Below, piece after piece: positions 17,324 through 25,877 of a stretch of DNA of 64,000 nt. Each line of letters begins with the position of its first letter. Position 1 is the stretch's first letter. The position numbers and the translations under genes were made by a program. Origin of the DNA: an uncultured Nioella sp. (lineage in GTDB: Bacteria > Pseudomonadota > Alphaproteobacteria > Rhodobacterales > Rhodobacteraceae); NCBI GenBank assembly GCA_947498125.1, contig CANMJH010000001.1, positions 1,240,001 through 1,304,000 on the forward strand, read 5' to 3'. The notes beneath the pieces were generated by a model, which was not told the DNA's origin, made no database searches, and saw nothing but the letters and a program-made list of their open reading frames with translations.

Positions 17324-17596
17324 CTAATTTCCCATCATCGCATCGGGATCGTTTGTGCAGTCCGCGACACACTGTTGTGCAGCTGCTTCAGCCTCCGCCA
17401 TTGCGGCATCGCAATTGGGGTTTCCCGCTTGGCTCATGCAAAGTCCGTATTCGTCGGCCAGAACAACCGGCGCAGATTCCGCCGCTGAGCAGACTTGCTG
17501 GATGCACATATTGACACTTTCCTGATCGGCCTGTGCATGCGCACCGATTGGCATCAACAGGGCAACAGAGAATAACGCGGCAGATCGTAATGACAT
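17324..17596 (-). CDS. Small exported cysteine-containing protein
   Basis: 90 residues. A signal peptide (MSLRSAALFSVALLMPIGAHAQA) is followed by a short mature chain with six cysteines: CIQQVC, single Cys at about 53 and 62, and CVADC near the end. No family recognised. AAGGAG lies 7 bases before the ATG at 17596; a TTG two codons earlier is rejected. Its plan resembles that of the protein at 19928-20185 on the other side of thrS. Periplasmic or secreted, presumably disulfide-bonded. Confidence 0.68.
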   Translation of the reverse strand: MSLRSAALFSVALLMPIGAHAQADQESVNMCIQQVCSAAESAPVVLADEYGLCMSQAGNPNCDAAMAEAEAAAQQCVADCTNDPDAMMGN

Positions 17597-17632
17597 TTGC
17601 AAACTCCTTTATGAATGACACGCCGGTTGAAA

Positions 17633-19927: not shown

Positions 19928-20185
19928 TCAGCCAGACGGGCAACTTTGCACGCAGCCATCATAATCTGAGGTGCAAATGCGGATGATCTGGTTACAGCCA
20001 TAAACATCGCTGCATTGATTATTGAGGTAATTTCCGGTCTCCAACGCTGTGTATGCATCCGCCGTACACTCGGATTCCTGCGCTTCACATCGGGACACAC
20101 ACTCAGCTTCGCCTAAATGATTTTCTGCAAATGCAGGCGCGCCCACCGAGACAGCCAAGCTCAGCCCAAGAAAAAAACGTTTCAT
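19928..20185 (-). CDS. Small exported eight-cysteine protein
   Basis: 85 residues. Signal peptide MKRFFLGLSLAVSVGAPAFA, then about 65 residues with eight cysteines, including CVSRC, CEAQESEC and CVQSC (Cx3C) spacings. No family recognised. The ATG at 20185 is preceded by a strong GGGGGGA ribosome site; an upstream in-frame start is rejected. That ribosome site lies in one arm of a long inverted repeat (20193-20247), so translation may be controlled by RNA folding. Similar in design to the protein at 17324-17596. Confidence 0.68.
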   Translation of the reverse strand: MKRFFLGLSLAVSVGAPAFAENHLGEAECVSRCEAQESECTADAYTALETGNYLNNQCSDVYGCNQIIRICTSDYDGCVQSCPSG

Positions 20186-20192
20186 GAAATCC

Positions 20193-20247
20193 CCCCTATA
20201 GTCGCGCACCATTCCGAAACGGACAGGCTAAACGCGACTAGAAGGGG
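20193..20247 (-). promoter_or_regulatory. Nested hairpin covering the ribosome site of the eight-Cys protein
   Basis: On the minus-strand RNA, CCCCT-type and TAGTCGCG arms (20233-20247) pair with CGCGACTA and AGGGG (20193-20206). An inner TCCG/CGGA stem (20213-20223) is nested inside. The outer arm includes the GGGGGGA ribosome site. It could also act as a DNA operator. Confidence 0.6.
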
Positions 20248-20301: not shown

Positions 20302-20670
20302 TTAGAAATGGCTCACTTCTTCATCCGGGCGTCCGGCCGCGATGGCCAGAATGCCGCCCAAAGCCGTCAGCGCGATGGGGAAGACGGTGAAAACGCCAAA
20401 GCCGAACGCCATATATAATGCACCCGCGCCGGCCAGCATCAAAAGCCCGCCAACCAAGGCCCGCGACCGCGCCATCGCGCCGCCAGCTATTGCTAGGATG
20501 GGCGACAGGATTGCCATCGCCTGATACTGGTCGGGGTTCTCGACCTGCTCGGCAACTTGCGGAACTTCTCCAAACCAATCGATGAATTCCACATATCCGT
20601 AGCCAAAGAACCCGACGACGAGCGCCAATGCGCCTCCGATCAATCCCAAAACAAGGGCTGCGTTGCGCAT
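20302..20670 (-). CDS. Small membrane protein of unknown function
   Basis: 122 residues with four predicted membrane helices (about 5-27, 52-68, 70-88, 92-112) and a soluble loop around residues 30-48 (FGEVPQVAEQVENPDQYQ). Many GG/AG packing motifs, short charged tail RPDEEVSHF. I do not recognise a family; the layout recalls DUF4064-like small membrane proteins. A GGAG lies about 9 bases before the ATG. It is divergent from the bufferin operon across a 360-base gap. Confidence 0.6.
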   Translation of the reverse strand: MRNAALVLGLIGGALALVVGFFGYGYVEFIDWFGEVPQVAEQVENPDQYQAMAILSPILAIAGGAMARSRALVGGLLMLAGAGALYMAFGFGVFTVFPIALTALGGILAIAAGRPDEEVSHF

Positions 20671-21030
20671 AGGGGCGCACTCCTTTTCGTAAATTATCTA
20701 TCTTCCAGCCTCAGATAGGCGCGAATTGCGCCAATTCCAAGCACTGACTGACGTGACGCGACTGTAACATTTCGCGATTCCATGCGGATTTACTCCGAAA
20801 CACCGGGAAACGCCAATTGAAGCGAAAACGACGCAACCGACTGATTCAAAACAGTAATGCACTCAACCTATAGGGTTAGCATTGCTCACCAAACTCTAAC
20901 AACTGCTCACGCACGCGTGCCCCACGCGCCTGTGATTGGAAAGCGAGCGAGCGGCCCGGTAGCTCTAATCACATCAGCCCCGGGGCTCGGGGCAGATACG
21001 AAATCATTAAACTCCAAGGGAGAGTTCCTT
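20671..21030. other. Gap upstream of the bufferin operon
   Basis: 360 bases without a convincing gene. It must hold the promoters of the divergent membrane protein and of bufA. I see short palindromes (GGCGC...GCGCC around 20718-20732; AACCTATAGGGTT around 20868-20880) but no clear sigma-70 or ECF promoter, and no recognisable copper-regulator box. An in-frame extension of bufA runs through part of it and is not believed. Confidence 0.5.
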
Positions 21031-21405
21031 ATGTCGACCCAAATGAAATCACTGGCCCTCATGGGCGCCGTTGCCGCTGCTCTGGGCGCTGTCACCACCA
21101 CGGGTGCGTCCGCTCAAGCCATGGAAAAATGCTACGGCGTTTCGCTGGCTGGTGAAAACGGCTGCGCCGCAGGCCCCGGCACGTCTTGCGCCGGTACTTC
21201 GACAATTGACTATCAAGGCAACGCATGGACCCTCGTTCCTGCTGGCACTTGCGCAGATATCGAGCTGCCTGATGGCCGCCATGGCTATTCCGAAGCCGCT
21301 CTGGAAGTTGACGGCTATAACGGCATCAACCGTGACCTGCCCGAGGGTCTGGCAGCTGACGTTCTGGAGGGTTACCGTCCAGTAGACATGATGATGGATA
21401 GCTAA
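21031..21405 (+). CDS. bufA: Bufferin-type RiPP precursor (BufA1 family, formerly DUF2282)
   Basis: 124 residues. A Sec signal peptide (about 1-30, ending ASAQA) is followed by a core with four cysteines at 34, 45, 53 and 74: [37 protein letters not shown]. This matches the BufA1 family, in which core cysteines are converted to thiooxazoles by BufB and the peptide buffers copper in the periplasm. An Asp/Glu/Gly-rich tail of about 50 residues follows the last Cys. AGGGAGAG precedes the ATG at 21031. First gene of the buf operon. Family assignment is from sequence; copper binding is from family knowledge. Confidence 0.88.
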
Positions 21406-21417
21406 GTCGCAATCTTA

Positions 21418-21454
21418 AAAGACCGCGCGCCCCTTTCAGTCACGCGCGGTCTTT
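21418..21454 (+). terminator. Hairpin between bufA and bufB (attenuator-like)
   Basis: AAAGACCGCGCG (21418-21429) and CGCGCGGTCTTT (21443-21454) make a perfect 12-bp stem with a 13-base loop and only a short T-run (TTTCC). In RiPP operons such a partial terminator lets the precursor be made in excess of the enzymes. Function inferred. Confidence 0.75.
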
Positions 21455-21533
21455 CCTCAACTTAGTTGAGGGCCATCGGGCGTTCGCGATCCAGTTTTCT
21501 CGGACGCCCGAAATCTATGATAGGATATAGCCC

Positions 21534-22391
21534 ATGTATGATTTTTCCTCCTCTTCGCGTCTGCCAAAGACCGCAGGCATCGGCTATAAACCTCAGCATT
21601 TCACCGAGTTGCGCGCCGAACCCGGCCCGGTAACCTGGCTGGAAATCCACGCCGAAAACTACATGGGGGATGGCGGCAGGCCGCTGGCGCAATTGCGCGC
21701 GCTTGCTGAAACATTCCCGATTTCCGTGCATGGCGTTGGTCTGTCTATCGGCGGCGAAGGCCCGCTGGATAAAGACCACATCGCGCGGCTGAAACACCTT
21801 TGCGACTGGCTAAATCCAGCCAGTTTTTCCGAACATCTGGCATGGTCCACGCATGAGGCGCATTTCCTCAATGACCTATTGCCCCTGCCCTATTCGCCCG
21901 AAACCTTGACCCGCGTCGCAGACCATATTGACGAAGTGCAAGAGGCCGTCGGCCGCCCCATGCTGCTTGAAAATCCCTCGACCTATCTCGCCTTCGAGGA
22001 CAGCACGATGGATGAGATCACATTCCTGACCGAGATCGCCAAACGCACCGGCTGCGGGTTGCTGCTGGACGTCAATAACGTCTTTGTTTCCTGCACCAAT
22101 CAGATTTGGGACCCAATTGAATATATTGAGAAATTTCCCCATCGCTTGGTCGGAGAAATCCATCTTGGTGGCCATGATGAAGATGAAGATGAACACGGCG
22201 CGCCGCTGTTGATTGACAGCCATGGCCGCGAAGTGGTGGATCCGGTTTGGGCGCTTTATGACCACACAATCAAAGTTGGCGGCACAAAGCCGACCCTGAT
22301 TGAGTGGGACAATGATGTGCCCGAATTTCCTATTCTGCGCGAAGAGGCCGCACGCGCCGACGCGATCTTAGCGCCAGTTCAGGCCGAATAA
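21534..22391 (+). CDS. bufB: Bufferin-modifying multinuclear iron enzyme BufB (DUF692, MbnB/TglH-like)
   Basis: 285 residues, TIM-barrel DUF692 family. The metal ligands of MbnB-type enzymes are visible: His in SVHGVGLS, Glu in FSEHLAWS, Glu-Asn in MLLENPSTY, Asp-Asn in [10 protein letters not shown], His residues in IHLGGH, Asp-His in LIDSHG and Glu in LIEWDNDVP. The expected reaction is oxidation of BufA core cysteines to 5-thiooxazoles with O2 and mixed-valence iron. It is followed by bufC after one base. Confidence 0.92.
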
Positions 22392-22392
22392 G

Positions 22393-23136
22393 ATGGGCCA
22401 AACTGATTTCACCGCCGCGCTCCTCGATCCGGAAAAACCGGTTCCCGAGGGTCTGGTTGACCCCCAAGGCCGCCCGGCGGGCAAACGCTTTGACGTATAT
22501 CGCAACAACGTCACCTCATCGCTGATCGCGGCGCTGGAAACGGGGTTTCCGGTTTTGCAGAAATTGCTCGGCGAGAGCAGCTTCAAGACCCTTGCCACAC
22601 TCTTTTTGCGGGCCCACCCGCCGACATCCGGCGCGCTGCAGCGCTACGGCGATGCGATGCCCGGCTTCCTGGCCGGGTTCAAACCCCTCGCATCCCTGCC
22701 CTATCTGGCCGATATCGCCCGGCTCGAGCTTGCCATTCGCACCTCATATCATGCAGCTGACCACCATCCGCTTGACCCGGCAGGTTTGGACCCAGAGGCG
22801 ATGATGGCCCTGACCCCTCGCCTTGCCCCCGCCACGCATATTCTGACCTCACCTTACCCGATCTATTCGATTTGGCGGATGAATATGGTTGCGGGCGCGC
22901 CCAAACCAGCGCCCGTGTCCGAAGACGTTTTAATCACGCGCGTCAATTTTGATCCCACCCCGCATCTGTTACCCCCCGGTGGGCGCCAGTTTGCCGAAGC
23001 ACTCGACGGATGCACCCCTATCGCCGCCGCAATCGAGGCTGCGATGATTGCAGCCCCGCGCGCCGATATTGCGGGCCTCCTGACGTTGTTTTTGTCCTCC
23101 CAAGCCCTGACCCTTCCAACTGAAAAGGTCCAATAA
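22393..23136 (+). CDS. bufC: BufB partner protein BufC (DUF2063)
   Basis: 247 residues of the DUF2063 family, annotated elsewhere as putative DNA-binding. Family knowledge places such proteins (like MbnC) as partners that present the RiPP precursor to the DUF692 enzyme. The N-terminal FDVYRNNVTSSLIAALETGFPVL is the family hallmark (Y-RNN); LPYLADIARLELA and YPIYSIWRMN follow. Start one base after the bufB stop, and stop one base before the DoxX start, so the three are tightly coupled. Confidence 0.88.
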   Translation: MGQTDFTAALLDPEKPVPEGLVDPQGRPAGKRFDVYRNNVTSSLIAALETGFPVLQKLLGESSFKTLATLFLRAHPPTSGALQRYGDAMPGFLAGFKPLASLPYLADIARLELAIRTSYHAADHHPLDPAGLDPEAMMALTPRLAPATHILTSPYPIYSIWRMNMVAGAPKPAPVSEDVLITRVNFDPTPHLLPPGGRQFAEALDGCTPIAAAIEAAMIAAPRADIAGLLTLFLSSQALTLPTEKVQ

Positions 23137-23137
23137 T

Positions 23138-23710
23138 ATGAATGCCTTGATATCCCTCCATGACCGCCTTTTCACGGCCATCGAAACCCGTATAGCTGCG
23201 CCGTTCCTGCCCGCCCTCGCAAGGCTGATCTTTGCCGGGACGCTGCTGGTCTATTACTGGAATTCCGGGCAGACAAAATTGGGGGACGGGATCTTTGGTT
23301 TTCTGAACCCCAGCTTCAACGCTTACGCCCAAATCCTGCCCCGCATGTCCGAGGCCGTAAGCTATGATGCCAGCCAACTTGGCGCTTTTGCCCATCTCTT
23401 GGTGATCGGCGCCACGATAGGCGAGTTTGTCCTGCCATTGCTGATCGTGCTTGGCCTGTTCACCCGTTTGGCGGCGCTTGGGATGATTGGGTTTGTCATC
23501 GCCCAAACGTGGGTCGACATTTTTGGCCACGGCCTCTCGGCAGAGGACGCAGGCAGCTGGTTTGATGTCTCACCCGAAGGGCTGATCTGGGATCAGCGGG
23601 CCTTCTGGATGTTCCTTTTGATCTATCTGGTGGTGCGCGGCGCCGGGCTGTTGTCGCTCGACGCGCTCTTGCGCAATCGCCTTACCCAGCCTCAGGAAAA
23701 CTTCGCCTGA
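23138..23710 (+). CDS. DoxX family membrane protein of the bufferin operon
   Basis: 190 residues with about four membrane helices (25-43, 80-100, 105-125, 150-172) and the DoxX pattern (LARLIFAGTLLVYYWNSGQTKL, LGLFTRLAALGMIGF). DoxX proteins close many DUF692/DUF2063 operons; a role in membrane redox or metal handling is assumed, not proven. Last gene of the operon. Its 3' end overlaps the convergent Spx/ArsC-like gene by 19 bases. Confidence 0.87.
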   Translation: MNALISLHDRLFTAIETRIAAPFLPALARLIFAGTLLVYYWNSGQTKLGDGIFGFLNPSFNAYAQILPRMSEAVSYDASQLGAFAHLLVIGATIGEFVLPLLIVLGLFTRLAALGMIGFVIAQTWVDIFGHGLSAEDAGSWFDVSPEGLIWDQRAFWMFLLIYLVVRGAGLLSLDALLRNRLTQPQENFA

Positions 23711-24583: not shown

Positions 24584-24706
24584 TTATCTCAGCCAAGTCC
24601 GCACACCCTCGATCGTGCCGATCCCATCAACCAAATCGCCGCCGCACCGGGGCGCGTCAGGCGCGATCCAAGGTTGGGGTTGGAATTTATCCGCCACCCA
24701 AGACTG
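24584..24706 (-). pseudogene. Possible gene tail left beside the DUF4062 gene
   Basis: Directly after the DUF4062 stop, a different minus frame stays open to a TAA at 24584-24586. It reads as host-like sequence (PQPWIAPDAPRCGGDLVDG, then GTIEGVRTWLR). It could be the C-terminus of a native gene cut when the AT-rich DUF4062 gene arrived, or chance. I do not recognise the family. Confidence 0.25.
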
Positions 24707-25877
24707 TCTCTCTTGCGGTGTCCATGGTGTCGTTGGCCCTTTTCAAGAATTCGACGAAATCTGCAATTAAAGCCACGTACGCTTTCGTACTCAAACCGTC
24801 AAATCCAGTTTCCTGCACGTTTTGAATTTCAGCTATACTTCCTTCACACGCATCTGACAGACTCATGTTTTGCTGTTTGGTAAGTTCCATCGAGTCAAAC
24901 AGGCTAACCAAATCATCCTGGCTGCCTGGAATTTCGTTAGCCATCAGCATTGATGCACGCTGCATGTCAGACATGCTTTTCATAAACTCAGAGTCCATTT
25001 TGGGAATTTCATGTGCGAGCCAATAAACAAATTCTTCGAATTTTTCAAAAGCACGTGTCGTTAACCGAACCGCCTTCTTTTGAGATCTATTTGGATTTTT
25101 GTTCAAGCCATCGAGTTCCCGCAAGGCGTCGAGCAACAGTTTCGAAAACTCATTAGTTTTTAATCCTACGGTATTAAGTCGACCTGTGTAGCTATTTAGC
25201 AAAATTGTCGCATCTTTAAATAGGAAACTGCTCGAAACGTCAGGGTCAGCACGTAGCAGTTTCTCTAGGTTCTTGAGGTGGTTGTATGGTTTCAGATCGG
25301 TATATTTGGTAACTGGAGTTATTGGTTCCACCTGCCCCCGGTAATCAACGCTCTCGAGCAACTCAAAGATTGATTTTTGAAGACCAGACCGAACAAGAAC
25401 CTGCAATTGAGCTAAATCTTCGAATTTCCGATAGTAGACTCCATAATTTTCGAGCTTATTGCGAAACTCTTTTACCCGTCCATATTGCGCTAAATCCACA
25501 TTGTCTAAATCTACCTTAGCAGACGAAAAGTAGAATTGGATTTTTGGTTCGCCTTTTTCCGTATTTTCTTTAATGGCCTCTTCGAACTCTTCCTCGGTTC
25601 CAGATTCGTACTTTCCGGTACTCGTTCCAAAATATGTTCCCATCAATCCCAAGTAAATGTCATAAGAACCAACTTGCGCAGAAATTGCTGCCTGTGACCT
25701 TTCGGCCCGGGCGCTAATTGAGTGCGTTTCCCATTTCACTGGATCGACACGGAACCCCTTTATCTGCCCTAGATCTTGCGTAATTTGATTGCAAATTTCC
25801 GTAACTATTTCGCGTTCTTTCTGAAGGTCTCCCGGAGAAGATATAAAGACACGAATATTCCGAATTGAATCTACCAT
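24687..25877 (-). CDS. DUF4062 domain protein, probably acquired
   Basis: 396 residues. The N-terminus (IRVFISSPGDLQKERE, then YDIYLGLMGTYFG and GTEEEFEEA, about residues 7-115) is a DUF4062 domain, a TIR-like fold usually found at the front of NTPase (STAND) signalling or defence proteins. Here no P-loop follows; the rest is helical with Lys/Glu-rich stretches and no family I recognise. The gene is visibly AT-richer than its neighbours and uses A/T-ending codons, pointing to transfer. It lies 23 bases downstream of thyX. A defence role is only inferred. Confidence 0.75.
   Translation of the reverse strand: MVDSIRNIRVFISSPGDLQKEREIVTEICNQITQDLGQIKGFRVDPVKWETHSISARAERSQAAISAQVGSYDIYLGLMGTYFGTSTGKYESGTEEEFEEAIKENTEKGEPKIQFYFSSAKVDLDNVDLAQYGRVKEFRNKLENYGVYYRKFEDLAQLQVLVRSGLQKSIFELLESVDYRGQVEPITPVTKYTDLKPYNHLKNLEKLLRADPDVSSSFLFKDATILLNSYTGRLNTVGLKTNEFSKLLLDALRELDGLNKNPNRSQKKAVRLTTRAFEKFEEFVYWLAHEIPKMDSEFMKSMSDMQRASMLMANEIPGSQDDLVSLFDSMELTKQQNMSLSDACEGSIAEIQNVQETGFDGLSTKAYVALIADFVEFLKRANDTMDTARETVLGGG

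Follow-up and report, generated by a model that had tools for sequence, protein, structure and literature searches.

A Buf1-type bufferin operon of an uncultured Nioella preceded by a conserved palindromic element

Bufferin 1 of Caulobacter vibrioides/crescentus is the closest described system to the operon reported here. Its operon (sigF plus CCNA_03363–03366) has a sigmaF promoter, GTAACC-N16-CGAA, and a negative regulator, NrsF (PMC3511200). The operon is among 11 genes counted as copper-induced in all conditions, and a sigF mutant is copper-sensitive (PMC8224329). In Buf1 the two central cysteines are modified, the outer two form a disulfide, and the product chelates both Cu(I) and Cu(II) (PMC12452194). 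We analyzed a relative of this operon in an uncultured Nioella sp. of the Rhodobacteraceae (hereafter the family), on 64,000 nucleotides (nt) of contig CANMJH010000001.1 (assembly GCA_947498125.1, positions 1,240,001 to 1,304,000), referred to as the window; all positions are those of the window. A palindromic element before its precursor gene, here termed the operator, is conserved in the family and excludes both the sigmaF-type promoter box and a neighboring NrsF gene.

The operon comprises four plus-strand genes. bufA1 (21031–21405) encodes a 124-amino-acid Buf1 (DUF2282) bufferin precursor with Cys34, Cys45, Cys53 and Cys74. bufB (21534–22391) encodes a 285-amino-acid multinuclear non-heme iron oxidative enzyme (MNIO, formerly DUF692), bufC (22393–23136) a 247-amino-acid DUF2063 partner with an RRE-like C-terminal half, and a doxX-type gene (23138–23710) a 190-amino-acid membrane protein (Pfam DoxX, 5.2e-09). 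A sequence-only reading had placed four genes at these positions and filed them as a bufferin-type operon of precursor, DUF692 enzyme, DUF2063 partner and DoxX protein. Profile searches bore this out: 21031–21405 matched Pfam DUF2282 (2e-23), 21534–22391 matched both Pfam MbnB_TglH_ChrH (9e-103) and NCBIfam MNIO_BufB, and the remaining two proteins matched DUF2063 (1e-24) and DoxX (5e-9), all above the curated cut-offs. The window operon is thus confirmed as a known kind, a Buf1-type bufferin operon, and its gene content and enzyme class are directly established.

The four core genes, their order and the precursor and enzyme families are alike in Caulobacter and the window. The two differ in precursor length (93 amino acids for Caulobacter CC3254; PMC3511200) and in control. 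Whereas the Caulobacter operon has sigF/nrsF and the GTAACC-N16-CGAA promoter, the window's genome is without NrsF and has the palindromic operator instead (PMC3511200, PMC8224329). Captophorins/oxazolins (fontiphorin, HvfABC, gonophorin) likewise combine an MNIO with a DUF2063 protein (PME1) and carry thiooxazoles on a Cys-rich peptide (PMC12668002). Their precursors are of the EGKCG kind, in contrast to the four-cysteine DUF2282 precursor of the window, and the NCBIfam HvfC and HvfX models stayed under their equivalog cut-offs here (42 vs 142 bits for BufC, 21.7 vs 80 bits for DoxX). Methanobactin (MbnABC) and pearlin (TglAHI) have the MNIO family and its ligand motifs in common with the window, but their precursors and products are other than the window's, and the NCBIfam MbnB and ChrH models scored far under cut-off on BufB.

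Taken as a whole, we put the probability of the following account at roughly 85%: a Buf1 operon whose product would be a copper-chelating periplasmic peptide, controlled by a family-specific operator instead of sigmaF/NrsF. BufA would be made with an N-terminal signal peptide, and in the cytoplasm BufB and BufC would oxidize C45 and C53 to 5-thiooxazoles. Sec would then export the peptide, a C34–C74 disulfide would close, and the mature peptide would chelate excess copper in the periplasm, shielding the cell envelope. DoxX would have some membrane role, and a strong hairpin past bufA probably allows much more precursor than enzyme. Expression would be set by a transcription factor that reads the operator at 20907–20939, not by sigmaF/NrsF.

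Operator and sigmaF box in the family

Relatives of bufA were found in 211 of 295 family genomes, a set with one genome per genus and one exception. The window and 60 of these 211 genomes, drawn from the better matches, formed a set of 61 loci (sets of 61, 80 and 110 loci used below share species, so that their counts are not additive). Over-represented words were found before bufA in the 61 loci, and iterative alignment of their upstream regions, seeded on GTGAnTGG, gave a motif of 60 columns. It scored above 8 bits in 53 of the 61 regions, against −4.2 or less in shuffled regions; this cut-off, like the sigmaF box pattern, was our choice. Its anchor lies 73–143 nt before the bufA start codon across loci.

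In the window the operator is a 33-bp plus-strand element at 20907–20939, TnACR-N4-YGTG-N3-CACR-N4-YGTGA-N-TGG, 99 nt (from GTGA) before the bufA ATG. It consists of two TnACG-N4-YGTGA-like palindromes 15 bp apart and is symmetric overall about position −11, with a symmetry score of 11.2 compared to 6.0 at the next centre. The arms of the window's inverted repeat (20907–20919 and 20923–20935, 13 nt each) are 77% complementary. An outer half-site of the extended operator, CTAACA at 20896–20901, falls in conserved TnACR columns at −36 to −31. We infer that the element is a protein-binding site. As a candidate RNA element the region was rejected, since Rfam returned a single sub-threshold match (16.9 bits vs a gathering score of 39).

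The operator is conserved and is closely tied to bufA. The window's genome holds exactly one site without mismatch, that before bufA. Eight further matches all had three mismatches (one being the same site on the other strand, seven lying elsewhere), and a reversed control gave five. Allowing at most one mismatch, the operator was present in 54 of 198 family genomes, all 54 with bufA (itself present in 140 of the 198), and the reversed control in none. A sample of the order gave 136 of 390 genomes and three control matches; all 390 belong to the family and overlap with the 198-genome set. In a class sample of 385 genomes, five of them of the family, four carried the operator, namely three of the family and 1 of the 380 outside it, where the reversed pattern gave three matches. 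Among 80 named loci, some from genomes shared with other sets, 60 scored above 8; five rows from Labrenzia, Roseibium, Pannonibacter and AO1-B did not.

NrsF gave no match in the window's genome, with the Caulobacter control positive, and no GTAAC-N16-18-CG promoter was found 60–120 nt before bufA; the window locus was classed as operator only. Across the 198 family genomes NrsF was found in 29 (28 above cut-off), and 23 of these genomes also have bufA. The two genes lie within 3 kb of each other, as read from coordinates, in 16 of the 23. The operator is absent from all 16 loci, and 15 carry a sigmaF-type box 60–120 nt before bufA; in the sixteenth (G077) the box lies at 184 nt by the chosen start. 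The seven genomes with NrsF elsewhere were divided between operator (2; G129 and G155), box (2; G135 and G175) and neither (3). Among 30 NrsF-negative genomes held out from motif building, 22 had the operator. Operator frequency thus differed between NrsF-positive (2 of 22) and NrsF-negative (22 of 30) loci with a Fisher p of 4e-6, a value that ignores relatedness; G129, G135 and G175, of the 22, were also among the 61 motif-building loci.

The same pattern was seen when 110 loci were classed by promoter type: 76 had the operator only, 17 the sigmaF box only, 17 neither and none both. A midpoint-rooted BufB tree of 109 of these (G130 had no usable BufB) requires at least five changes between operator and box states. 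One fork (86 rows, support 87) contains all 76 operator rows and leaves out 13 of the 17 box rows. That operator and sigmaF box, or neighboring NrsF, exclude each other is well supported as a fact of sequence. In our reading, a new operator has probably taken over from sigmaF in the course of the family's evolution, and some reversals or transfers have occurred as well. This would be a variant of bufferin control that looks new, with a second, mutually exclusive control element spanning many genera of one large family. No mention of the operator or of the sigmaF exclusion was found in the open literature consulted on bufferins, NrsF and roseobacter copper, subscription papers and supplements aside, which is weak evidence of novelty.

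Several observations weigh against replacement by an operator with its own reader. Two of the seven genomes with a distant NrsF carry the operator, the NrsF match of one (G129) being sub-threshold and interrupted by two stops. The operator was missing in 8 of the 30 held-out NrsF-negative loci, and 17 of the 110 loci have neither promoter type. The BufB tree is weakly supported, with 48 of 106 inner branches open. A conserved −10 could not be placed downstream of the operator, where only a weak, position-scattered motif was obtained (score 332 as best of 60 starts, against 283–298 in five shuffles with best of 15 starts each) that was not used. Finally, a CopR/CusR-type search of the genome gave no candidate reader. 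The loci with neither type and the held-out loci without operator point to a third arrangement or to variants that escaped detection.

Two further observations concern the region upstream of bufA. One locus (L101; G063:C9:6219-6251) has the operator in the spacer separating bufA from bufB and a second, weaker copy ahead of bufA. Of the 61 loci, 43 contain the word TGWAACAW (20763–20770 in the window) within the 600 nt upstream of bufA, compared to 7 after bufA; its most frequent position is 140–149 nt ahead of the operator anchor. In 17 loci this word falls on the thrS stop, but in the window it lies ~960 nt beyond thrS.

Modification enzymes and precursor

BufB scored 370.5 bits with NCBIfam MNIO_BufB (equivalog cut-off 310), and its closest solved enzyme by sequence was PDB 3bww (1.7e-45). 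Alignment with 3bww located the motifs H66, H101, E146, D179/N182, H210, D228/H230 and E257, all intact, in agreement with the earlier description of an MbnB-like enzyme with complete ligand motifs; in relatives these motifs carry the metal ligands. BufC matched DUF2063 with 87 bits (cut-off 27.2). Its AlphaFold2 model was confident (predicted local distance difference test 94.6), and Foldseek matched it over most of its length to 8hi7_A of the TglHI complex (2.6e-06) and to 3dee (2.8e-04), neither of which was found when the PDB was searched with BufC by sequence. The BufC fold is thus like that of NGO1945 and of a chain of TglHI. 3dee is a PME1 protein (PMC12668002), and BufC has both the DUF2063 domain and, by fold, the RRE-like second domain of a PME1 partner.

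Related MNIO–DUF2063 pairs form 5-thiooxazoles, with a loss of 4 Da per cysteine and absorbance near 302–305 nm (PMC12668002). Following the Buf1 pattern in relatives, C45 and C53 are predicted to be modified in the window BufA. The sequence-only reading had anticipated losses of about 4 Da at the core cysteines; going by the Buf1 pattern (PMC12452194) this would hold for the two central cysteines and not for all four, giving a total of ~2 × 4 Da plus 2 Da. Modification, export and copper binding of the window product are likewise assigned by analogy with relatives and would follow their course.

The genes had been called tightly spaced, which is correct for bufB, bufC and doxX (1-nt gaps) and incorrect for bufA and bufB, 128 nt apart with strong hairpins between them (21406–21533, plus strand). 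In the window this spacer folds as RNA at −56 kcal/mol (z −5.7), and none of 200 shuffles was as stable. Within the first 90 nt or less past bufA, z was below −2 in 55 of the 61 loci (−2.5 in the window), compared to 8 of 61 and 1 of 61 for equal stretches before bufA and inside bufB, respectively. The hairpin sequence varies between loci. It is likely a partial terminator or an mRNA-processing site favoring precursor mRNA, and its conservation suggests a way to make precursor in excess over enzyme.

BufA scored 82.5 bits against a DUF2282 cut-off of 22.4 and was the only match to this profile in the whole genome; no NCBIfam model matched it. The four cysteines seen in the sequence-only reading are C34, C45, C53 and C74, and all are invariant in 40 aligned precursors. 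Residues ~1–29 resemble a signal peptide by eye (basic, hydrophobic, then ASA). No PDB entry matched BufA at E ≤ 0.001, by fold or by sequence.

A long acidic tail had also been pointed out, and 50 residues indeed follow the last cysteine (21253–21402, plus strand), with 12 Asp/Glu, 3 Lys/Arg and 3 Met. Comparison of the 110 and 80 loci resolved it into a conserved R..G..RDLP, a lineage-specific insertion and a Met/acidic C-terminus. Most relatives compared have 22–29 residues after the last cysteine, and operator-type precursors mostly stop just past RDLP. Tails of 40 residues or more were found in 16 of 110 loci; 15 of these have both an extension and an insertion ahead of RDLP, and the other (G017) has an unrelated end. 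Tail length needs nine changes on the BufB tree. On this comparison the 50-residue tail appears as a lineage-specific feature. Tail and operator are uncoupled, as long tails also occur without the operator (L182, L185, L189, L196 and G222). In the first four, which are Pararhodobacter and similar loci, a long tail ending in Met occurs together with a GTAAC-led sequence ~75–79 nt before bufA.

The tail may serve as a recognition (follower) segment for BufBC and not be part of the copper-binding product, a possibility we regard as less likely than not. R83, R101, D102 and P104 do not vary among the 40 aligned precursors, whether short-tailed or long-tailed, and AlphaFold2 confidence was higher in the tail blocks (81–89) than in the Cys region (54–56). 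That model is weak overall (67.2) and the precursor has no match of known fold, however, and because the conserved part is also present in short-tailed relatives, the extension is left unexplained. A copper-related role for the extension itself is less probable again. Met makes up 10.0% (30 of 300) of the residues after RDLP in the 16 long tails, compared to 0.7% of the core and 4.1% between the fourth cysteine and RDLP. Met is present in 12 of these tails, as MM in 7, and absent from 4. In 25 long tails among the 80 named loci Met accounts for 43 of 401 residues, and 8 tails have none. Because these tails come from related rows, and between a quarter and a third of them contain no Met, we offer a Cu(I) site formed by Met clusters next to acids as a conjecture of rather low likelihood. 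The Met/acidic tails would represent a testable second copper site.

Candidate readers and signals

The sequence-only reading had remarked on the absence of a regulator next to the precursor. This holds for the neighboring genes, although a conserved operator does precede bufA. No regulator gene was recognized beside the operon, either among BLAST clusters of flanking open reading frames in the 61 loci or in a hidden Markov model scan limited to seven window proteins. The recurrent clusters were thrS, an arsC-like gene, a cold-shock gene and one small membrane protein. A further cluster, LysR-like as judged by eye, was found downstream of the operon in 4 of the 61 loci, the window not among them. 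NrsF as a sensor was rejected, being absent from the genome.

A two-component regulator of the CusR/CopR kind is an improbable reader. Each operator palindrome, TnACR-N4-YGTnA, has the 14-bp architecture of TnACA-N4-TGTnA, which we take to be the CusR/HprR consensus. On searching the genome, none of 26 matches to the cztR_silR_copR model exceeded its cut-off (best 180 vs 279 bits), so that no OmpR-type regulator qualifies as CopR/SilR and a CopR/CusR sensor was rejected. The six best OmpR-type loci have no copper genes alongside, as judged by eye, and the single perfect operator site also argues against this reader. Single palindromes (TSACG-N4-YGTGA) gave 18 strand-matches at 16 places in the genome, compared to 8 for the reversed control (~2×). 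None of the places lies before a copper gene recognizable by eye, a weak test given that the pattern misses the window's own operator. A few are intergenic, such as those in front of cytochrome-like open reading frames (L141).

It is also improbable that the operator is an altered promoter of the extracytoplasmic function type, a drifted sigmaF box at which an orphan sigma factor continues to direct transcription of the operon. The operator anchor (73–143 nt) and the sigmaF box (75–105 nt in most loci) are about equally far from bufA, as if swapped. Sigma boxes are not palindromic, though, whereas the operator is (11.2 vs 6.0); it is also longer than 30 bp, with no conserved −10 found downstream. 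The lack of NrsF in the window's genome points the same way, sigma factors themselves not having been part of that search.

We consider it about equally improbable that the product responds chiefly to a stress other than copper (gold, silver, chromate, cadmium or protein oxidation). In Caulobacter, chromate and cadmium induce the homologous regulon as well, and the gig cluster of C. metallidurans is induced by Au, Ag and Cu with no effect on copper resistance there (PMC8224329). Inactivation of Caulobacter sigF, however, made cells grow less well with copper but had no such effect with chromate or cadmium, although the regulon includes other genes (PMC8224329), and the Cu(I) and Cu(II) chelation by Buf1 (PMC12452194) also favors copper. 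Copper protection by the window operon is expected by analogy with Caulobacter.

That BufC, whose RRE-type half is of the winged-helix kind, senses unmodified or copper-loaded precursor and autoregulates its own operon is highly improbable, and is raised because genomes hold roughly a single site each and the operator was not seen to be accompanied by any regulator gene. For a transcription factor acting at the operator, which we prefer, the 33-bp element offers a bait with which a new regulator of envelope copper stress could be found.

Neighborhood of the locus

The gene order bufA-bufB-bufC was found in all 61 loci, with DoxX in 60. Upstream, thrS lies on the same strand in 55 loci; downstream, an arsC-like gene on the opposite strand and a cold-shock gene (csp) were found in 55 and 56 loci, respectively. 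The window operon likewise follows thrS and is followed by genes for an ArsC-family protein and a cold-shock protein. This mostly fixed place between thrS and the arsC-like and csp genes makes the operon look like a largely vertically inherited locus and not a mobile cluster. The named records nearest to the window locus are from Nioella, Rhodobacteraceae strain W635 and Alterinioella.

Other genes near the operon vary. A 122-amino-acid small membrane protein without a Pfam match is encoded divergently before bufA (20305–20670, minus strand); of the 61 loci, 33 have a relative of it close to the bufferin genes, on the upstream side in 8 and on the downstream side in 25. Genes for two small proteins that look secreted and are rich in cysteine (19931–20212 and 17327–17602, both minus strand) lie on either side of thrS; the proteins had no Pfam match above cut-off and no relatives within 7 kb in any of the remaining 60 loci. 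A DUF4062-domain protein is encoded at 24687–25877 (minus strand), past the conserved csp gene. One locus (L069; G007) has tandem bufA genes, seen as two matches 76 nt apart, before a single bufB. Rhodobacteraceae-type bufA genes were also found in records named Novosphingobium sp. MW5 (L185), Maritalea mobilis (L156) and Chelativorans sp. ZYF759 (L190), which reflects either misnamed records or transfer.

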